Positions 18 through 43,741 of a DNA stretch of 43,741 nucleotides are shown here, piece by piece; the stretch's first letter is position 1; every line of letters starts with the position of its first letter. A model generated the notes under the pieces. That model had not been told where the DNA came from and ran no database searches. It worked only from the letters and a program-made list of their open reading frames with translations. Position numbers and translations under genes: made by a program. The DNA is from a virus: positions 1-43,741 of the IMG/VR virus record IMGVR_UViG_3300050139_000007; one strand, written 5' to 3'.

Positions 18-60
18 GGAACCTCGAAGAAGGTTCCGCTATTCTGCTACACCTTCTTCT
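18..60 (+). promoter_or_regulatory. Leader RNA element, copy 1 (H-type pseudoknot-like)
   Basis: GGAACC (18-23) can pair with GGTTCC (32-37). The loop bases GAAGAA (26-31) can pair with TTCTTC (54-59), which gives an H-type pseudoknot. Alternatively GAAGAAGG (26-33) pairs with CCTTCTTC (52-59) as one 8-bp stem. The same 43-nt element recurs at 27235-27277 with the middle pair changed from A-T to C-G and all arm spacings kept. It heads the rightward virion operon about 320 nt before the first gene. Structure and duplication are seen directly; function (leader RNA, antitermination or control) is inferred. Confidence 0.75.
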
Positions 61-645: not shown

Positions 646-3495
646 TTGACCCCGACTCAAGCCAAGGCCACAATCCTTGACTTACTAGAGAAGGGGTTTA
701 CTATTGCCGATGCCTGTAAGGTATCAGGCAGGTCGGTTAAGTCCTACGAGGGCTACAAGGCAAACGACTCAGACTTTAGAACCAAGATAGAGATTATCCG
801 TGCCACCCAGAATAGGGACGGCAAAGTCCTCCAAGAGGACGCAGACATATCCTTTGAGGATTTCAGGCTCAAGTACCTGAACTCCCAGACCTTCCCCCAT
901 CAGTTGAACATGATTGACCTGCTGGAGGACAGAGACCCCCGCTGGCTCCATGACTCTATGGTTTATGAGCCAGGGGAGAGGCAATACGTCTTAGTTAACG
1001 TACCGCCAGATCATTGTGCGGTAGTTACTACACCAGTCTTTTCCAACCGTGGCTGGATTACGGTAGGAGACGTAGTAGAAGGCGACAGACTTGTAGGCAG
1101 GGATGGAATGTTCTGGCCCGTCTATGAAACCTGGGAACCCGATACTGCAGTAGAGACGTTCACCGTTAAGTTTGATTCAGGTGATAAGATCGTAACCGAT
1201 GCCGCCCATAAGTGGGTGGTTCACGATTACCGTGGTGGTCAGCATATGATGACTACTGCCGAACTAATCGAGAAGCCCAAGATAAACAAGAACCAGAAGT
1301 GGCGCGTCCAGGTTACCCCCTCTGTTTTTATGGAGGAAGCGGAGTTGCCCATTGACCCATACCTCATGGGGTACTGGCTAGGTGATGGCGATAAGAACGC
1401 CCCACGTCTTGCAGTTGGTGATGAAGATACCCAACCATTGCTCGACCAAATAGATTCTATGGGTTATACCTATAACAAGACACGCGACTCCCGCGATGGT
1501 TCCAATGTTGTCTATGTCCACGGAATACGCAAGTTCCTTCCTTTGGGGGACAAGAGGATACCAGATAAATACTTCTTGGGTTCTCGCGATCAACGACTAG
1601 CACTCCTACAGGGGTTGATGGACTCTGACGGAACCATCACCGTTAAAGACGGTAGGGCTAGGTGGGTGCAGAATAACCGCCCAGAACTTGCCACAGATGT
1701 ATATAGACTCATTGCCTCACTCGGCATGAAGCCCCACTACAAGAAGTACAAAGCCTCAAGGGGCACGGGACTTGTCGCCCCTGGCGACTATGGATTTTCT
1801 TATGAGGTTGGATTTAGACCAACCGAGTGTAAGGTTTTCAGATTAGAACGTAAAGCATTACGACAGAAACCTATCGGTCCGCGTTCTAAGACACAGTTTA
1901 GAGTTATCGACTCTATCACCCCAGCGGGTATGAACCACGTAAAGTGTATTACGATGTGCGCCCCTGACGACTTATTCGCGGTAGGTAACGGTCTAATACT
2001 AACCCACAACGCCAAGTCTATGACCGTGAGTATTGACTACGTTACCTATCGTGTATGCCTGGACCCCACCATCCGTGTCAAGATCGTATCCAAGACGCAG
2101 ACGATGGCGGCAGAGTTCCTTTATGCTATCAAGCAAAGACTTTCCTCCCCCATGTGGGCAGACCTGCAAAAGAGGTTCGCACCAGTAGAAGGCTACAAGG
2201 CCACCGCTGACAAGTGGACCTCAACTGAGATTTACCTCCAGCGGGATTCTAGCGAGAAAGATCCCACTATACAAGCCCTTGGTATCCAAGGGCATATTTA
2301 CGGTGCCAGAGCAGACTTGATCGTACTGGACGACTGTGTAACCCTATCCAATGCTGGAGAGTACGAGAAGCAGATTCGTTGGATTCAACAGGACTGCGTA
2401 ACCCGATTGGGGCCATTCTCCAAGTTGCTTGTCGTGGGTACCCGCGTTGACCCTATTGACCTCTACAAGGAATTACGCTCAGACACCAGATACCCAGAAG
2501 GTGTGTCCCCGTGGACTTACCTGGCTATGCCAGCGGTATTGGAATCAGATGAGGACCCTACCAAGTGGGTAACTCTCTGGCCCAAGTCAGACCGCCCGTG
2601 GCTTAAAGACAAGACCGAGCCAGATGAGAACGGACTCTATCCCCGATGGGACGGACCCCACCTTCGCAAGCGTCGTGCAATCTTAGAACCCCGAACCTGG
2701 GCAATGGTTTACCAGCAACAGGACGTATCCTCTGAGGCGATCTTCAATAAGGAGTGCGTACAGGGAACTGTGACTGGTATGCGTCGTTCTGGCCCCTTAG
2801 TCAAAGGCGCACCTGGACACCCAGACACTATAGCCCCACCGTATGTCATCTGCTCTATGGACCCCGCTATGACGGGGGACACGTTCACTATCGCCTATGC
2901 AGGGGATGCCTCAACGGGAAAGCGTTACGTGCTGGAGGCTTCCAAGATGACCTCCCCAACCCCTGAGAAGATCAGGGATATTATTTCCAGTTGGACAATC
3001 AAGTACAACCCGAATGTGTGGGTTATTGAAAAAAACGCTTTTCAGTTGTTCCTCACGATGGACGAGGGAATTAACAAGTTCCTTGCCTCCCGTGGTATTC
3101 GCTTAGTTCAACATTACACGGGCAACAACAAGATGGAGACCGAGTTCGGTGTGGCATCCGTCTCTCCCCTATTTGGTTCTGTGGATGCGATGGGAAAGCA
3201 TAGAGGCGACAACCTCATATTCCTTCCCGCTGCCGATACCGAGGCTATTAAAGCATTGATCGAGCAACTTGTCACCTGGTCACCAGGGACGAAGAACAAG
3301 TCTGACGGCCCGATGGCTTTATGGTTTGCCGAAACGCAGATGAGGCAGTTCATCACCCAGACTGGAATATACCAGAGGACTTCGGTTCCCAACCCTTATA
3401 GGTCAAGGAACGATGATGCAAAACGCAGGGTAGTCAACCTTGACGAGTGGCAAGAGTACCAAGAAGAACTTAGGGCTAGTGGGGGGATGTGGTAA
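646..3495 (+). CDS. terL: Terminase large subunit with in-frame LAGLIDADG intein
   Basis: ATP-driven DNA packaging motor and headful or cos nuclease. An intein of 332 aa (nt 1015-2010, residues 124-455) interrupts the ATPase exactly inside Walker A, between PPDH and AKS. The joined extein reads VPPDHAKSM. Walker B (LIVLDD) lies near residue 560, and nuclease acidic residues appear in SMDPAM (Asp about 739) and VIEKN (Glu about 795). The intein has Cys1, Trp two residues after the block-B His (residue 190), Cys 434 in block F, Thr 453 and terminal His-Asn, a WCT set typical of class 3 inteins. It also has two LAGLIDADG helices (about 239-250 and 320-332). The +1 residue is Ala, which is unusual. 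TTG 646 has no clear ribosome site; CTG 601 may be the real start. Confidence 0.93.
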   Translation: MTPTQAKATILDLLEKGFTIADACKVSGRSVKSYEGYKANDSDFRTKIEIIRATQNRDGKVLQEDADISFEDFRLKYLNSQTFPHQLNMIDLLEDRDPRWLHDSMVYEPGERQYVLVNVPPDHCAVVTTPVFSNRGWITVGDVVEGDRLVGRDGMFWPVYETWEPDTAVETFTVKFDSGDKIVTDAAHKWVVHDYRGGQHMMTTAELIEKPKINKNQKWRVQVTPSVFMEEAELPIDPYLMGYWLGDGDKNAPRLAVGDEDTQPLLDQIDSMGYTYNKTRDSRDGSNVVYVHGIRKFLPLGDKRIPDKYFLGSRDQRLALLQGLMDSDGTITVKDGRARWVQNNRPELATDVYRLIASLGMKPHYKKYKASRGTGLVAPGDYGFSYEVGFRPTECKVFRLERKALRQKPIGPRSKTQFRVIDSITPAGMNHVKCITMCAPDDLFAVGNGLILTHNAKSMTVSIDYVTYRVCLDPTIRVKIVSKTQTMAAEFLYAIKQRLSSPMWADLQKRFAPVEGYKATADKWTSTEIYLQRDSSEKDPTIQALGIQGHIYGARADLIVLDDCVTLSNAGEYEKQIRWIQQDCVTRLGPFSKLLVVGTRVDPIDLYKELRSDTRYPEGVSPWTYLAMPAVLESDEDPTKWVTLWPKSDRPWLKDKTEPDENGLYPRWDGPHLRKRRAILEPRTWAMVYQQQDVSSEAIFNKECVQGTVTGMRRSGPLVKGAPGHPDTIAPPYVICSMDPAMTGDTFTIAYAGDASTGKRYVLEASKMTSPTPEKIRDIISSWTIKYNPNVWVIEKNAFQLFLTMDEGINKFLASRGIRLVQHYTGNNKMETEFGVASVSPLFGSVDAMGKHRGDNLIFLPAADTEAIKALIEQLVTWSPGTKNKSDGPMALWFAETQMRQFITQTGIYQRTSVPNPYRSRNDDAKRRVVNLDEWQEYQEELRASGGMW
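1015..2010 (+). mobile_element. LAGLIDADG intein in terminase Walker A
   Basis: The coding segment for 332 residues runs from Cys1 to the terminal HN. It has splicing blocks (CAVV..T.VF start; AAHKW block B; VKCIT block F; LTHN end) and a two-motif homing endonuclease in the middle. Insertion into a nucleotide-binding P-loop is a classic intein site. WCT residues point to class 3, which uses the block-F Cys as first nucleophile. Alanine follows the last Asn, so the usual C/S/T +1 nucleophile is missing and splicing would need a different second step. Confidence 0.9.
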
Positions 3496-17051: not shown

Positions 17052-18129
17052 GAAACCAAAGATAAAGATTGCCACGTACTCAATTGCAAAAGACGAAAGT
17101 AAGCACGTTGCACGTTGGTTAGAAGCAACCAGGGAGTCAGATTATCGAGTGGTATTCGATACTGGTTCCACAGATAATACAGTAGAATTACTCAAAGCAG
17201 CAGGAGTCATCGTAGAGGTGGGCATCATCACCCCTTGGAGATTCGACACCGCTAGAAACAGGGCATTAGACCTAGTTCCACAGGACGCGGATGTGTGCCT
17301 GATCTTGGACATGGACGAGGTTCCAGAGAAGAACTTTTACAGGAAAGTACGAAAGCAATGGGTGCTCGGTGCAGACCGAGGCTGGATAGATATTGACACG
17401 GGTTTCAAGTGGAGGGTTGACAGACTCCACTCGCGCAACAACTGGAAGTGGCAATGGCCTTGCCATGAGGTTGCCATTTGGCAACTAGAGCGCGAGTACG
17501 TGTTCTGCGACACCACGGCGGTCATCAAGCATGAACCAGACTCATCCAAGAGCCGTGGTCAGTATATGACCATGTTACAGGATGCTTGCGCTGGAGAGTT
17601 TTCAGAGGACTCCCGTATGTGGATGTACCTCACCAGAGAGTACTACTTCAACAACGAGTGGGCCAAGGTCATTGAGTGCGCCAATAAGGCACTCACCTTC
17701 GACGGCTGGGACGTTGAACTGGCGGCATTATGCCGTTGGGCAGGAGATGCCTCTAAGAACCTCAAGATGGACGCTACAGACTGGTTTGACCGTGGGGCGA
17801 GTATCTGCCCACAAGAAGGCGAACCGTGGCTAGGAGTGGCAGCAGAAGCCTTTAGAACCCATAAGTGGGAGAAGGCATTAGATGCCGCTATCCGCGTCAT
17901 AGAGACTCCCAAGATGAACCATTATCTACATGAGCCTACCGCATGGAGTTGGAAAGCCTATCGGATTGCGATGGACTGCTCCTACAACCTCGGCTATCTG
18001 GATGAGGCTATTGCCTTCGGCAACGAGGCATCCAAAGCCAAGGGACCAGAGCAAGCAAGTATCGAGCGAAATCTAAAGTTTATGGAAGGGTTGAGGCGTG
18101 GAACACGAGCACAAGCCAAAGGTAACTGA
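17029..18129 (+). CDS. Family 2-type glycosyltransferase with helical repeat C-terminus
   Basis: A 366-aa protein. Residues about 13-180 match a GT-A glycosyltransferase fold: an N-terminal nucleotide-binding strand (IATYSIAKDE), DTGSTDNT (about residues 43-50) and a metal-binding DMDE (about 90-93). The rest (about 200-360) is tryptophan-rich helical hairpins like TPR repeats. It would transfer a sugar from a nucleotide sugar, perhaps to virion proteins, given its place among virion genes; DNA or host-surface targets are also possible. Its start overlaps the preceding small gene and its end overlaps the next. Confidence 0.82.
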   Translation: MHNTRQSEKPKIKIATYSIAKDESKHVARWLEATRESDYRVVFDTGSTDNTVELLKAAGVIVEVGIITPWRFDTARNRALDLVPQDADVCLILDMDEVPEKNFYRKVRKQWVLGADRGWIDIDTGFKWRVDRLHSRNNWKWQWPCHEVAIWQLEREYVFCDTTAVIKHEPDSSKSRGQYMTMLQDACAGEFSEDSRMWMYLTREYYFNNEWAKVIECANKALTFDGWDVELAALCRWAGDASKNLKMDATDWFDRGASICPQEGEPWLGVAAEAFRTHKWEKALDAAIRVIETPKMNHYLHEPTAWSWKAYRIAMDCSYNLGYLDEAIAFGNEASKAKGPEQASIERNLKFMEGLRRGTRAQAKGN

Positions 18130-26190: not shown

Positions 26191-26221
26191 AATACCCCCA
26201 CTTAATTGTGGGGGTATTTTT
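26191..26221. terminator. Strong bidirectional terminator
   Basis: AATACCCCCAC (26191-26201) pairs with GTGGGGGTATT (26208-26218) around TTAATT: 11 perfect base pairs followed by T-rich DNA on the plus strand. It ends the rightward virion-lysis transcript. On the minus strand, leftward transcription into the 26179 gene would also have to pass it. Confidence 0.88.
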
Positions 26222-26738: not shown

Positions 26739-26986
26739 GTGTTGCCAGCCACGTAATCCTGGGCGTTACCCTGTGGCAATACTGCTGGCGTCTATAACCT
26801 AGATGCTTGTGGACAAGGACTGTTCGACCAGTTGCCAACGTAACACTGCACCCTTGTTGGGTTCGGTTATAGCCTACCCCTGGTTGGTTGTCGAAACTTC
26901 CCAGGAAATCTAAAGGCAGTTTTACGCAGACATACCCAGGTCCTTTTAGGGATTTGGCCCGCCATAGCGAGTGTTCCCGTCACACG

Positions 26987-27058
26987 CCCGAATGGAGGGA
27001 CTCGAACCCTCTTCGACCCCGCCTTAGCGGGGGTGCTTCACCATTTCGCATCATTCGG
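26987..27058 (-). tRNA. tRNA or tRNA-like cloverleaf, anticodon uncertain
   Basis: A minus-strand fold with a 7-bp acceptor (CCGAATG/CATTCGG), a canonical T arm (GAGGG-TTCGAGT-CCCTC), a D region with the usual GG, and a 5-nt variable loop. The anticodon arm is odd: a standard 7-nt loop would be GCTAAGG with C at position 33 and a C-C clash at the top of the stem, while the best helix leaves a 4-6-nt loop. No CCA is encoded. It may be a degenerate tRNA or part of a larger RNA. Confidence 0.55.
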
Positions 27059-27062
27059 GTCT

Positions 27063-27234
27063 TGCTGGTTGGTACCCCCGTATACACGCTAATCGCTTAA
27101 ACGGAACCAGCAATTCTATTTAGTTGTCAATTCCGTTAAATGGTTGGTTCCGCTGGAAGCGGAAAACGACAGTTTTCAAACTACTCAGTTTTATTAAGTT
27201 TTACTAAACTATACTTAAAATATGTTATAGTAAA
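27063..27234. other. Gene-free AT-rich promoter stretch
   Basis: CGGAACCA (27102-27109) and TGGTTCCG (27145-27152) form a long-range inverted repeat, again using the GGAACC/GGTTCC pair. A perfect minus-strand -35 word (TTGACA at 27130-27125) points toward the structured RNA. On the plus strand TATACT (27210-27215) and TATAGT (27226-27231) are candidate -10 boxes for the leader that starts near 27235; no good -35 accompanies them. Confidence 0.4.
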
Positions 27235-27277
27235 GGAACCGCGAAGCAGGTTCCGCTCTACGGCTACACCTGCTTCT
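27235..27277 (+). promoter_or_regulatory. Leader RNA element, copy 2 (H-type pseudoknot-like)
   Basis: GGAACC (27235-27240) pairs with GGTTCC (27249-27254), and GAAGCA (27243-27248) with TGCTTC (27271-27276). All loop lengths equal those of copy 1. Relative to copy 1 the A-T pair in stem 2 is C-G here, a true compensatory change, while GGTTCCGCT and GCTACACCT are unchanged. It heads the DNA-metabolism operon about 300 nt before its first gene. Confidence 0.75.
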
Positions 27278-27410: not shown

Positions 27411-27426
27411 TGTGAGATGCGTCACA
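27411..27426. promoter_or_regulatory. CRP/GlxR-type palindrome, copy 2
   Basis: TGTGAGATGCGTCACA is a perfect TGTGA-N6-TCACA, the consensus of CRP-family cAMP receptor proteins, including actinobacterial GlxR and mycobacterial Crp. A sister site differing at two spacer bases lies at 43537-43552. It is about 100 bp upstream of the promoter at 27516 and inside the leader if transcription starts near 27235. Confidence 0.6.
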
Positions 27427-27515: not shown

Positions 27516-27553
27516 TTGACAGTTCTATTCTGACCGTGGTATCTTTCTGTCAA
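27516..27553 (+). promoter_or_regulatory. Sigma70-type promoter within an inverted repeat
   Basis: TTGACA (27516-27521), an 18-bp spacer and TATCTT (27540-27545) form a plausible promoter for the nuclease operon. TTGACAG (27516-27522) and CTGTCAA (27547-27553) form a perfect inverted repeat that brackets the promoter, as an operator would. The ATG at 27572 follows a full GGAGG ribosome site. Confidence 0.5.
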
Positions 27554-27571: not shown

Positions 27572-27760
27572 ATGATTGAAATTGATAACATTGAATTACC
27601 GTCTCACGTAAGTTACAGCGCAATTACCAGTTGGTTGCGTTGCGGTTGGGCTTACTATTTAGGACGGCTTCGTGGCGTTGAAGAAGAACCGAGTGTGTGG
27701 CTTGTAGGCGGTTCGGCGTGGCATGTAGCAACGGAGAATTGGGATAAGGAAAACACATGA
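27572..27760 (+). CDS. Cas4/RecB-like nuclease, N-terminal part
   Basis: A 62-aa protein matching the start of the phage PD-(D/E)XK exonuclease family: SYSAITSWLRCGWAYYL (about residues 15-31) followed by LVGGSAWHVATE (about 44-55). Cys 24 is in the place of the single N-terminal Cys ligand of Cas4-type iron-sulfur nucleases, and His 51 belongs to the conserved active-site helix. It stops in an ATGA overlap with the next ORF, which supplies the rest of the enzyme. Either two co-translated chains assemble, or a -1 shift fuses them. Confidence 0.75.
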   Translation: MIEIDNIELPSHVSYSAITSWLRCGWAYYLGRLRGVEEEPSVWLVGGSAWHVATENWDKENT

Positions 27761-28368
27761 GCACTCCTTTAGAATTATGGGAGGCGGCCTGGAAAGAGTG
27801 CGTGGGAGACAAAGACCTCACCAACGCAAGAGTGGGTGGGCGAGTATCCAAGGACAAACCCAACAAGGAAGATGTAGCCCAATGGCAGAAGCAGGGGCCA
27901 GAGTGGCTGAATAACTACATCGCATGGCGCAAAGGTAATCCTGAGTGGCAGATATGGAAAACTCCGCAGGGTATTCCTGCTATCGAGTTGGGACTCAACC
28001 CTCAAATCGCTGGTATAACGATCAAGATGAGCATTGACCGCGTGTTCCAAGTGGGAGATGAGTTGATTATCGTTGACCTCAAGACCAGCCAGAATGTGCC
28101 ACCGAGCGCGTTGCAGTTGGGGTTCTACAAGTACGGCATGGAGGAGACCTTCCATATCCCAATCAACTTCGGTACGTTCTATATGGCTCGTCAGTCTGGC
28201 ACCTCGGACTTGGTGGACTTGAGTTGGTACACAGCCGAGAAGTTGGAATATCTTGTCTCCATGTTTGACAAAGCCAGGAAAGCGGGTATATTTATACCTA
28301 ATGCAGATAGTTGTTCAATGTGCGGATTTACACAAATCTGCGAGTTTACATCAAAACGAAAGGGTTAA
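27757..28368 (+). CDS. Cas4/RecB-like nuclease, C-terminal catalytic part
   Basis: A 203-aa protein. IDRVF..DELIIVDLKTSQ (about residues 91-113) carries the Asp and DxK catalytic residues of PD-(D/E)XK nucleases, followed by QLGFYKY (about 120-126), the family Q-x3-Y motif. The C-terminus has CSMCGFTQIC (about 188-197), three Cys that with Cys 24 of the upstream ORF would hold a 4Fe-4S cluster. It probably resects DNA ends for recombination or replication. The split at this point is unusual; homologues in other phages are commonly one chain of similar total length. Confidence 0.8.
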   Translation: MSTPLELWEAAWKECVGDKDLTNARVGGRVSKDKPNKEDVAQWQKQGPEWLNNYIAWRKGNPEWQIWKTPQGIPAIELGLNPQIAGITIKMSIDRVFQVGDELIIVDLKTSQNVPPSALQLGFYKYGMEETFHIPINFGTFYMARQSGTSDLVDLSWYTAEKLEYLVSMFDKARKAGIFIPNADSCSMCGFTQICEFTSKRKG

Positions 28369-28685: not shown

Positions 28686-29321
28686 ATGAGTAATGAGTTC
28701 GGACCACAGACATATCAAATCAAGAAAGTAATTGAGAAATTTAAGACGTTAACACCAGCGCAAATTGCCTCTCTGGATGCCTCTCTGGATGCCTCTCGGG
28801 CTGCCTCTCGGGATGCCTCTTGGGCTGCCTCTCGGGGTGCCTCTTGGGCTGCCTCTCGGGCTGCCTCTCGGGATGCCTCTTGGGCTGCCTCTTGGGATGC
28901 CTCTCGGGCTGCCTCTTGGGATGCCTCTTGGGCTATGCGAGACGTGGTAGAAGCCCTACATTCTCGCGACCTGATAGGCAACAAGTTCACCCAAGCACAT
29001 TATGATTATCTCGTTCTTCCTTGGCGACAGATTGTTGGCGAGTTTGAGGAACCACCAACTGTCGAGCCATTGGAGAAGCGGGTTGATAAGTTGGAGAAGC
29101 GGGTTGATAAGTTGGAGAAGGTTATCAACTATGGACTTCCTTGGTACGCAGTGAGTCTACCTACCGCAGATACAATATCAGCCAATGTGGAATATCTATG
29201 TCAATTAGGTGAGCGCAAAAAGAAAGCGCGCGAAGAATTGAAAGAACGATATGAAACCCAGAAAGAAAAACTTTACAAAGGTTATCAAGTAGAGAATGAC
29301 AATATAGAGAGGATGAGATAA
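28686..29321 (+). CDS. Alanine tetrapeptide-repeat protein, paralog 1
   Basis: A 211-aa protein. Residues 28-83 are 14 repeats of Ala-Ser-(Arg/Trp/Leu)-(Asp/Ala), followed by a domain with [22 protein letters not shown] (about 94-117). A heptad coiled coil follows (two copies of LEKRVDK, about 130-145), then a charged helical tail. The post-repeat domain matches that of the leftward gene 39389-40159. Such DAxWxAA-type proteins are widespread in phages without known function; they probably form a long helix or helical stack. Confidence 0.7.
28767..28934 (+). repeat. Fourteen 12-bp tandem repeats
   Basis: Fourteen units of the type GCCTCTYKGGMT run without interruption and in frame, so unit number can vary without breaking the gene. 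Sequence variation between units is concentrated at three positions. Confidence 0.95.
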
Positions 29322-35654: not shown

Positions 35655-36043
35655 TGAATATCGAGAAGGCGGAAGCCTACTTTAAGGATATTTACGAGAA
35701 GCATTATCCAGAAAAATACATAAGACCAGATGGAACCTTTTATTGGAGTCAATGTCGTGGCGATCACGGGGTATCTGGTTGGGAGTTCGATATTGACATG
35801 GACGAGGACGATCTGTGCTATGAGTACAAGATAGCGGCAGATATTTTAGGATTACCAATAGTTCCGCTTGAGAAGTCACCACCACAAAAGCCCAAGCCAG
35901 AGTCAGAAAAGACGTTTATGGATAAAGCGTGGGACAGAATGGTGGTACAAGCGTTAGAATCTTTTATTCATACCCAAGCGTTATCATCCATGAAAGTTAC
36001 AGACCGTCCTTCTATAATTTTTCAGAAAGAAGCAAAGGAATAA
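35654..36043 (+). CDS. Hypothetical acidic protein
   Basis: A 129-aa protein. An aromatic/acidic N-terminal half (FYWSQCRGDHGVSGWEFDIDMDEDD) is followed by a Pro/Lys linker (about residues 73-85) and a short helix. No family is recognised. It is coupled by TAATG overlaps to the phosphoesterase and the sigma-like gene. Confidence 0.6.
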   Translation: MNIEKAEAYFKDIYEKHYPEKYIRPDGTFYWSQCRGDHGVSGWEFDIDMDEDDLCYEYKIAADILGLPIVPLEKSPPQKPKPESEKTFMDKAWDRMVVQALESFIHTQALSSMKVTDRPSIIFQKEAKE

Positions 36044-36729
36044 TGGATTACGAAACCCGTATCAAGCCGTGGGAGTACGTTATAGCCTCCGTAGCCAGGG
36101 AGTACCACCGCAAGTTCGATATGTGCGATATGGTAGACATCAAACAATCCCTCTATGAGTGGTTCCTTGAGCATCCTAACAAGTTGGCAAGTTGGGAGAT
36201 ACTATCCAAGAAGGAGACAAAGAACCTTATCTACCGTAGCCTTCGCAATCAGGCGTTCGACTACTGCCAGTCTTGGAAGGCTAAGACGCTAGGATATGAG
36301 AAGGATGACCTGTTCTATTACACCCCAGAGATGGTGGAGAACCTGCTTCCCACCATGCTACGGGATGAGGAGATAGATCGTATGCCTGTGTTGAACTTGG
36401 GTAAGACTGGTGGGGGACACGGCACTCCTGCCGAGAGTGGCAACATGGATACCATGATTGCCGATGTATCAAGAGGATATGGAAGGTTGAACAATGAAGA
36501 TAAAAAGGCTGTATTTATGCGTTTTGCACTCTCCTTTGGATTTGCTGAAATTGCTGCCAGAATGGATTTGGCGACCGAGGATGCTGCCAGAATGAGAGTT
36601 AAGAGGGCGGTTAAGCATATTGTGGTGAAGATTGGGGCCTTCAAACCACGTATTGAACCTGACGATTTACCACAAGACAATACCTCCGACGCTGCGGATG
36701 CGCCAGAGGTATATGCCGAACTTAATTAA
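36043..36729 (+). CDS. Sigma-factor-like protein
   Basis: A 228-aa protein from ATG 36043. The N-terminal half is helical and aromatic-rich like sigma region 2 (YVIASVAREYHRK, NLIYRSLRNQAFDYC). The end holds a helix-turn-helix resembling sigma region 4 (FAEIAARMDLATEDAARMRVKRAVKHI, in part residues 165-190). It could redirect host RNA polymerase to late genes, but sequence similarity is weak and a general HTH regulator is possible. It ends the rightward operon, with its stop overlapping that of the leftward operon. Confidence 0.65.
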   Translation: MDYETRIKPWEYVIASVAREYHRKFDMCDMVDIKQSLYEWFLEHPNKLASWEILSKKETKNLIYRSLRNQAFDYCQSWKAKTLGYEKDDLFYYTPEMVENLLPTMLRDEEIDRMPVLNLGKTGGGHGTPAESGNMDTMIADVSRGYGRLNNEDKKAVFMRFALSFGFAEIAARMDLATEDAARMRVKRAVKHIVVKIGAFKPRIEPDDLPQDNTSDAADAPEVYAELN

Positions 36730-38966: not shown

Positions 38967-39389
38967 CTAATACCACGAATGGCGCTGGAAGTGCGCCCAT
39001 GCTTTACAAGGAGTGTAGTACCGATATGCGATATAAGCAAGACCTCTTTCAATCTGCAAGGTCGGCGGGGTTAATGGACTCATATTTAGAATCTGTGGAA
39101 TGCCACCAGCGTTCTTGCCCATGACTTTCACGGGATTGACCGCTTTCGGGTTCCATGCGCTCTCCTTGCCCCATAGGTTTGATAGGCACACAAATTGAGC
39201 CTCGGCGTCCTTGATTACTGCGTCGTGAGCGTAAGCGAGTGAGTCCGTCTTGGTCCAAGTGTGCACTAATGGTCTGGTATATGGCGCACTAATGGTAGTG
39301 TCGGTTGGTCGGGTGTGGTCAAACGTATCCACTACTCCAATAATTGAGAAGGCTAAGATTGCGCCAAGGATTGCTTCAGTTATAACCAT
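38967..39389 (-). CDS. Membrane-anchored lytic-transglycosylase-like protein
   Basis: A 140-aa protein. Residues 1-23 are a membrane or signal anchor (VITEAILGAILAFSIIGVV). The rest matches a small SLT/Rpf-like lysozyme fold: WGKESAWNPKAVN (catalytic Glu at about residue 75), GGIPQIL and GLAYIAYRYYTPCKAWAHFQ near the end. It would cleave glycan strands of the wall. It lies in the leftward operon, far from the lysis cassette, so an entry-independent role such as wall remodelling or lysis aid is possible. Confidence 0.75.
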   Translation of the reverse strand: MVITEAILGAILAFSIIGVVDTFDHTRPTDTTISAPYTRPLVHTWTKTDSLAYAHDAVIKDAEAQFVCLSNLWGKESAWNPKAVNPVKVMGKNAGGIPQILNMSPLTPPTLQIERGLAYIAYRYYTPCKAWAHFQRHSWY

Positions 39390-40159
39390 TATTTGCCTCC
39401 CTTTATTGCCGTCTTTGGGTTGTCCAGGGCTGATTGAACTTCTTTGATTTCCTTGTCGAAGTTCGGTTTCTGCAAATCCTCATCGTCTGGATGAATCTTG
39501 CCTATTGCTTGTCTCCAAGGGATTGTGAGAGCATCGTAATGTTCTTGGGTGAACCTTCCTTTGCCGATGAGATCACGGGAAATAAGTGTCCTTGCGGCGT
39601 CCCCTGCGGCGTACCCTGCGGTGCACCATGGTACGCACCATGCGGCGTACCATGCGGCGTCTCCTGCGGCGTCCCATGCGGCGCACCATGGGGCGTCCCT
39701 TGCGGCGTACCATGCGGCGTCTCCTGCGGCGTCCCTTGCGGCGTCCCTTGCGGCGTCCCCTGCGGCGTACCCTGCGGTGCACCATGCGGCGCGGAGTTTC
39801 TCAATATCATTTTTGTCTAGTTTCTTGGCTCGCTCAATAAGTGCGACCACTTCCTTGCCTTGAGGCCCAAAGAACTTCCATGACTCAATTTCGCGGGTCA
39901 CAAATGCTTTACTTGCTCCGATTTTATGCGGGTGAGAGCCGTCCATGTAGATTATCGCGTCACTTGCTGGCTCAATCTCAAAGAGTCGGCAAGGCCATGA
40001 TGCCCCTACACACTCGGATGGAACTGTTGCTAGGTGCAACCAACCAGAGCCAGGAAACTCGCCCTTACCCGACATTTCAGGCAGGGGTACGCGGGTGTAG
40101 TCGATCTTGCCAGTATGGAAATCTGTACCGTCCATCTTTGTTGCCTTGTAATATGTCAT
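39389..40159 (-). CDS. Alanine tetrapeptide-repeat protein, paralog 2
   Basis: A 256-aa protein. The N-terminal 120 residues form an alpha/beta domain; then 17 repeats of Ala-Ala-x-(Asp/Tyr/Cys) type (about residues 123-190). Next comes a domain with SRDLIG..FTQEHYDALTIPWRQAIG (about 193-220), shared with paralog 1 at 28686-29321, and a charged tail. The repeats are encoded by 12-bp units unrelated in sequence to those of paralog 1. Function unknown. ATG 40159 follows AAAGGAG. Confidence 0.7.
   Translation of the reverse strand: MTYYKATKMDGTDFHTGKIDYTRVPLPEMSGKGEFPGSGWLHLATVPSECVGASWPCRLFEIEPASDAIIYMDGSHPHKIGASKAFVTREIESWKFFGPQGKEVVALIERAKKLDKNDIEKLRAAWCTAGYAAGDAARDAARDAAGDAAWYAARDAPWCAAWDAAGDAAWYAAWCVPWCTAGYAAGDAARTLISRDLIGKGRFTQEHYDALTIPWRQAIGKIHPDDEDLQKPNFDKEIKEVQSALDNPKTAIKGGK
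39589..39792 (-). repeat. Seventeen 12-bp tandem repeats
   Basis: Seventeen GC-rich units, for example CCCTGCGGCGTA on the plus strand, run in frame within the leftward repeat protein. Several neighbouring units are identical, which suggests recent expansion by slippage or unequal crossover. Confidence 0.92.
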
Positions 40160-43304: not shown

Positions 43305-43536
43305 ATCATGTATGTATTACATTTATGTATAACAAAACAACTAACCTCCTCCTAAAGCGTGTCAGTCTGGTTGCAAAACATAGCCAATAATTAGGTCGTA
43401 GAGGATGTAAAGACTTCCTATCTGGGAACTTCCTGAGTATGACCTAGGGGTTTTAACTAGTACTATACTATATATATAACTATCCCCCCAAATATTTTTC
43501 CTAAGAAAGACTCACGCTCAAATAGCCTTAATATCA

Positions 43537-43552
43537 TGTGAGTTACGTCACA
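43537..43552. promoter_or_regulatory. CRP/GlxR-type palindrome, copy 1
   Basis: TGTGAGTTACGTCACA is a perfect TGTGA-N6-TCACA and matches 14 of 16 bases of the site at 27411-27426. Its centre is about 80 bp upstream of the likely transcription start of the virion leader (candidate -10 TATAGG at 43612-43617), a usual activator distance. Confidence 0.6.
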
Positions 43553-43614
43553 TTCTAAAGATATATTGAAAAAAGTGTCGCTTGCCACCCTTTGAACAGG
43601 GTCTTCTAGGGTAT

Positions 43615-43741
43615 AGGAATAAATAATTTAAGGAACCTCGAAGAAGGTTCCGCTATTCTGCTACACCTTCTTCTCATACAACGAGTTCAAACGAGTTGTA
43701 TGGTTAGTAAATAGATTTACTTATTTTGGGATATCTATGCC
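43615..43741. repeat. Right copy of 127-bp terminal direct repeat
   Basis: Exact copy of bases 1-127. Joining the ends places the control region (42.9-43.6 kb) directly upstream of the leader at 1-380, so the two should be read as one region of about 1.1 kb. Confidence 0.95.

Follow-up and report, generated by a model that had tools for sequence, protein, structure and literature searches.

In phage lambda, the nut site consists of boxA followed by boxB and works with the N protein. The put sites of phage HK022 are about 70 nt long and comprise two stem-loops, with putL lying just downstream of its promoter and putR about 270 nt down (PMC9378689). An initial annotation of a 43,741-nt viral sequence (IMG/VR record IMGVR_UViG_3300050139_000007, hereafter the window) likened to put a short element present in two copies, which it drew as an H-type pseudoknot, and named a sensor or translation-control RNA as other options. 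The comparisons reported here make it very probable that the element is a structured RNA family in phages of freshwater Actinobacteria. No family in Rfam 15 reaches its gathering threshold for the element in the window and eight relatives, and we found no description of it in the open-access papers of PubMed Central. We file it as a putative new family of phage cis-acting leader RNA and not as a member of put. A fluoride riboswitch match elsewhere in the window, at 17194-17241 (- strand), was set aside as sub-threshold (24.9 bits against a gathering score of 34).

Repeat, homologues and fold

The annotated 43-nt element, at 18-60 and 27235-27277, has the sequences and coordinates it was given, and the shared block extends to 45 nt (16-60 and 27233-27277). 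The two aligned copies are identical at 39 of 45 positions, and their similarity breaks off sharply at either edge of the block. The element is seen again at 43632-43674 (+), which is the same locus as copy 1, since positions 1-127 equal 43615-43741, a 127-nt terminal redundancy of the circular contig.

Both copies lie on the + strand and share one layout. In copy 1 (18-60), a 9-bp stem that we call S2 pairs 26-34 with 51-59 and is followed inwards by an internal loop (35-37, UCC, and 48-50, UAC) and a mini-stem, GC(U), of 38-40 with 45-47. The matching parts of copy 2 (27235-27277) are 27243-27251 with 27268-27276, the loop strands 27252-27254 (UCC) and 27265-27267 (UAC), and 27255-27257 with 27262-27264. 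An alternative stem, S1, joins 18-23 to 32-37 in copy 1 and 27235-27240 to 27249-27254 in copy 2. The copies differ at positions 24, 30, 41, 43, 45 and 55, of which 30 and 55 are pairing partners, and the compensatory change that had been claimed for the second stem is indeed present, A30-T55 of copy 1 being C27247-G27272 in copy 2. When six random substitutions were simulated, 1.3% of trials left every S2 pair intact while including one double change or more, and 1.8% left both S1 and S2 intact. The evidence for structure from the two window copies alone is modest.

An exact-sequence search of IMG/VR returned chance matches only, without the stem. The window's gene for the large terminase subunit (TerL) was then used as a query and gave 80 relatives in IMG/VR; a strict sequence scan of these failed to pick up homologues because the stems change. 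Read directly, the upstream regions of the closest TerL relatives (76-80% identity) contain the same structure written in other stem letters, for example GCAAAGCGT-TCCGTTTGAACTTC-ACGCTTTGC. A pattern derived from the loop matched 23 IMG/VR stretches. With a single exception these stand in the family's promoter-and-leader context, and those that could be read through to a gene lie upstream of TerL. They include L162 (GAAGCGTGT-TCCGCTTAAGGCTAC-ACACGCTTC) and a more distant group (L147, L150, L151 and others). The exception, L156, scores 23.5 bits, lacks that context and was rejected as a chance locus. A protein search of GenBank phages identified the cultured 'Ca. Planktophila' phages E7 and F5 (OX376640, OX376641; PMC10202952) as the closest named relatives, and these carry GGATTAACC-TCCGTTTGCTCTAC-GGTTAATCC immediately 5' of TerL. 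Homologous elements thus do stand upstream of an operon in related phages: the element is found 5' of the TerL gene in about ten sequence-distinct phage lineages, E7 and F5 among them, always in sense orientation and between the late promoter region and TerL.

A descriptor of structure only (no stem sequence, at least 7 bp, TYC...TWC) matched one element each in E7, F5, G001 and G003 and both window copies, all with 9 bp; all remaining matches had stems of 7-8 bp, and no match came from 652 kb of shuffled sequence. The element of G002, whose stem has just 6 bp, escapes the descriptor yet is detected by covariance model. That model (R1), built from the first 13 sequences, gives family members 41-52 bits, window copies 1 and 2 scoring 41.6 and 44.9, and non-members among the TerL relatives at most 14 bits. 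In 85,000 bacterial and archaeal genomes the core pattern had 11 matches at 17-28 bits, which we counted as chance; one that was checked in context, L175, appears to sit within a coding region.

The best-supported fold is a hairpin and not the pseudoknot originally drawn: S2, then a 3x3 internal loop (5' UYC, 3' UWC), then a short GYU/RRC mini-stem. S2 is universal within the family, with 6-9 bp across relatives (9 bp in the window, L162, L039 and E7; 6-7 bp in the others). The 6 bp first assigned to this stem in the window are in fact 9, and relatives covary through the GG and T that had been given to stem 1. In a 14-sequence alignment (A2), each of the nine S2 pairs shows at least one double substitution and 91.5% of cells are able to pair. 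S2 scores 0.705 for covariation, a value reached by 0 of 500 shuffles (mean 0.249, sd 0.034), and the score falls to at most 0.158 when the partners are slid. Mean pairwise identity between lineages is 43% in the stem and 87% in the loop core. RNAfold likewise favours S2 in the window (-15.1 and -17.2 kcal/mol for the two copies). The claim that structure is under selection is therefore strongly supported by homologues with covarying stems.

S1 has a narrower distribution. It measures 6-8 bp in w1, w2, L162, L038, L039, L042 and L090, where the counterparts of the annotated GGAACC/GGTTCC are GAACACG/CGTGTTC (L162), GAAGCA/TGCTTC (L038), GAACGC/GCGTTC (L039, L042) and GGAGTACC/GGTGCTCC (L090); by inspection E7 has a 5-bp version, AACGG/CCGTT. 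Over 12 rows these helices sum to 63 bp; 2000 shuffles of the flanking sequence average 42 and never exceed 56, which indicates that S1 is real in the window's closest relatives. It is absent from four relatives or groups (L040, L041, L123 and the L147 group). With S2 at its full 9 bp, S1 shares the three nucleotides 32-34 with it in copy 1, and S1 and upper S2 must be alternatives or merely a partial pseudoknot, because both use the same strand. The pseudoknot thus survives in part, through the universal S2 and an S1 kept in the closest relatives, and the element is better described as a hairpin, S2, against which a 5' stem competes, than as a fixed H-type pseudoknot. We discounted an AT-rich outer helix that encloses the element in L040-L042, since its 5' strand overlaps the -10 region.

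By the covariance model, the element is missing from relatives whose TerL is about 68-70% identical. Their predicted transcript often begins with a perfect hairpin of freely changing sequence (GGGGATTA..TAATCCCC, GGGACTTC..GAAGTCCC or GGGTTTT..AAAACCC, for example), and many then carry a different conserved leader RNA, GTTCGGCTC...GAGCCTCAMAGCGA...GACGAAC. This second RNA lies upstream of TerL in L043-L117 (L101 and L115 are examples), could form a GGCA/TGCC pseudoknot, has no Rfam match at the loci scanned and is apparently unrelated to the window element. Structured late leaders are thus common in the group, and the window element is one solution.

Operon and promoter context

As the initial annotation had it, each copy heads one of two rightward operons, the only ones in the window, which fits the layout of open reading frames. 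Copy 1 precedes genes for a WhiB-like regulator (381-620, +; PHROG 12112, E 1.4e-5) and for TerL (646-3495, +), the anchor gene of the family, and the main operon behind it, for capsid and packaging, runs for roughly 25 kb. The TerL gene is interrupted by an insert that exceeds 300 aa (residues 122-454 approximately, bounded by 'PPDH|C' and 'THN|AKSMT') and contains a LAGLIDADG domain. The insert resembles an intein placed in the ATPase motif, but its final Asn is followed by Ala, which is unusual for splicing. Copy 2 precedes the exonuclease/helicase/primase/sigma operon, whose first genes are two exonuclease ORFs (27572-28368, +). The exonuclease is split at an ATGA overlap (27757-27760), as it also is in the ten relatives with a match; a protein search of IMG/VR with it gave no relatives, and the family search with phrog_1870 in known records did find some. 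Two oppositely oriented genes, 28686-29321 (+) and 39389-40159 (-), each match PHROG 8332 and contain an array of 12-nt tandem repeats (28766-28945 and 39590-39800, respectively).

The window contains exactly two CRP/GlxR-type palindromes (TGTGA-N6-TCACA), one upstream of copy 1 (43537-43552) and one between copy 2 and the exonuclease promoter (27411-27426). Sites of this type, with at most one mismatch, occur in 68 of 71 TerL upstream regions and in 2 of 71 shuffled ones, and the palindrome kept upstream of TerL suggests that late transcription reads a host CRP/GlxR-like regulator. A probable -10 of the late promoter (TATAGG, 43612-43617, +) was matched by eye to the relatives' conserved promoter block ACAGGTTATCTTATATGTATA, and the copy 1 transcript is predicted to start at about 43624, some 8 nt before S1. 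This promoter may be read by the phage's sigma-factor-like protein (35929-36729; PHROG sigma-K factor, E 3.6e-15), which is 48-61% identical in phages with the window's late promoter type and 27-30% in others. Further upstream, a DNA block at about 43445-43510, GACC..GGGGTTTTAA ... TATC..CCAAAATATTTTT.CTAA, is conserved by eye in the window and relatives.

Window-type relatives share one order: palindrome, promoter block, element just 3' of it, a leader of 89-213 nt, TerL. In the L147 group the element lies about 75 nt further down, and overall it is 89-319 nt from the first start codon, a placing that would tie it loosely to the promoter rather than to a ribosome site. Direct control of ribosome binding is disfavoured by this varying distance, which makes the local translation control once considered unlikely.

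No element precedes the exonuclease operon of the relatives, which is served by a TTGACA-type promoter near the start codon. The window retains such a sigma-70-type promoter (TTGACA-18-TATCTT, 27516-27545, +), and copy 2 and its CRP-type site precede it. This arrangement suggests that copy 2 was added in the window's lineage. The two-operon pattern from which the parallel with put was drawn is peculiar to the window phage, the only one with two copies; every relative genome with the element has one, before TerL. In the non-coding stretch upstream of copy 2 there is also a tRNA-like gene with an unclear anticodon (26986-27058, -). A TTGACA-type promoter of the - strand (27357-27329) is directed towards it across copy 2.

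Candidate functions

An invariant loop among changing stems points to recognition by something and not to mere bulk structure. The loop persists while TerL (49% in E7/F5) and the early module (in G013, 27% for the sigma factor and 40% for the primase) diverge; that it outlasts a change of early module speaks for a partner supplied by the host, RNA polymerase for instance. The promoter-proximal place before an operon of about 25 kb suggests an effect on the elongation complex or on the life of the message. We tentatively favour a put/nut-like element that acts on the nascent transcript through RNA polymerase or an elongation factor. The S2 hairpin would form on the nascent transcript, often after a first-forming S1 hairpin whose strand it takes over; a factor shared by every host of these phages, either RNA polymerase or an elongation factor, would recognise the constant loop; and the elongation complex on the long operon would become more processive, resisting pausing or Rho, as with HK022 put or lambda nut. 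A stricter version, in which a protein-independent antitermination RNA is read by host RNA polymerase through its UYC/UWC loop and drives the late operon, is doubtful; under it, the RNA would have been copied in one phage to drive the replication operon too.

Several observations weigh on antitermination. A scan for terminator patterns gave nothing convincing of the intrinsic kind within either operon, where terminator-like hairpins are no more frequent than expected by chance, and the first convincing one on the + strand, at 26191-26218, is the operon end; with few intrinsic terminators to overcome, the reading is weakened. A C-rich, Rho-like leader is present in many relatives and absent from L038, L162, E7 and L151, and an argument from Rho sites fails since the leader is not universal. 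The element's architecture also differs from that of put, and the other-type TerL relatives appear to manage without it. A partner protein was sought by presence and absence and none was named, because the promoter type tracks the early module with its sigma factor and the RNA core crosses that boundary (G013).

Ranking close behind this put/nut-like reading, and possible though less probable, is stabilisation of the message: a structure near the 5' end would block 5'-dependent decay (RNase J/E, pyrophosphohydrolase) and prolong the life of long operon transcripts. The hairpin starts roughly 8-15 nt past the predicted start in the window and its closest relatives, its predicted fold is stable (-15 to -17 kcal/mol), and the other-type relatives also open their predicted transcripts with a perfect free-sequence hairpin. 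A passive block, however, would need no invariant UYC/UWC loop, and in the L147 group a separate hairpin occupies the predicted 5' end while the element lies about 75 nt inside. That same invariant loop would suit recognition by an RNA-binding protein of phage or host, or the RNA may be a two-state switch between S1 and S2, in either case timing the operons; S1 pairs with the upper S2 strand and covaries, as in a 1:2 versus 2:3 arrangement, and the window has copy 2 and a CRP-type site before its replication operon, where relatives have no copy. We hold this to be unlikely, given that S1 is missing in L040, L041, L123 and the L147 group, that no riboswitch family matches, and that no terminator-like hairpin or start codon lies near S1/S2 to be switched. 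For an attenuator, no competing terminator hairpin with a U-tract occurs in the copy 1 leader (+ strand) or between copy 2 and its first gene, and the sensor RNA once suggested is left without support.

Inverted repeats can also serve proteins on DNA, and pac or cos sites are often near TerL, which the element adjoins. A DNA-level inverted repeat for packaging, replication or a regulator is nevertheless very improbable: the whole stem changes freely in a compensated way around an invariant, asymmetric loop, as is typical of RNA, the orientation is always sense just 3' of the promoter, and a second copy lies 27 kb away. To a chance repeat without function we give practically no credence. The window by itself offers a single compensated pair in support of structure, but chance is already refuted by the recurrence of that structure, with strong covariation, ahead of TerL in about ten lineages of distinct sequence.

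The element adds to the phages of very abundant freshwater bacteria a structured RNA family that is outside Rfam and well supported by covariation, and its occurrence in the cultured phages E7 and F5 makes its function testable. Action on RNA polymerase would make it a case of RNA-based antitermination beyond the enterobacterial phages, and mRNA stabilisation would reveal how very long transcripts are preserved in these phages. The second copy in a single lineage would be a natural case of an RNA module moved to another operon.

Comparison with known leader RNAs

By eye, the element resembles the preQ1-I riboswitch in its GGUUC...GCUACACC around the hairpin loop. It lacks, however, the A-rich 3' tail that forms the second stem, its gene context is unrelated, and there is no Rfam match at E up to 5 for the window or up to 1 for the eight relatives. 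Like the 5'-terminal stabilising stem-loops of bacterial and phage mRNAs, it is a hairpin close to a predicted 5' end, but its loop is invariant and in one group (L147) it is internal. With lambda nut it shares a leader hairpin that could load elongation factors; unlike nut it shows by eye no boxA-boxB arrangement in nut order, and no N-like protein was identified. HK022 put has two stem-loops in about 70 nt where the element has one hairpin with an overlapping S1 in about 45 nt, and put serves early operons where the element precedes the late operon and, in this phage only, the early one. Put brings about terminator read-through that depends on the RNAP beta' zinc-binding domain, whereas antitermination by the element is a candidate function. 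Both are small, structured RNAs close to where a phage operon begins, and possibly both need host RNA polymerase only.
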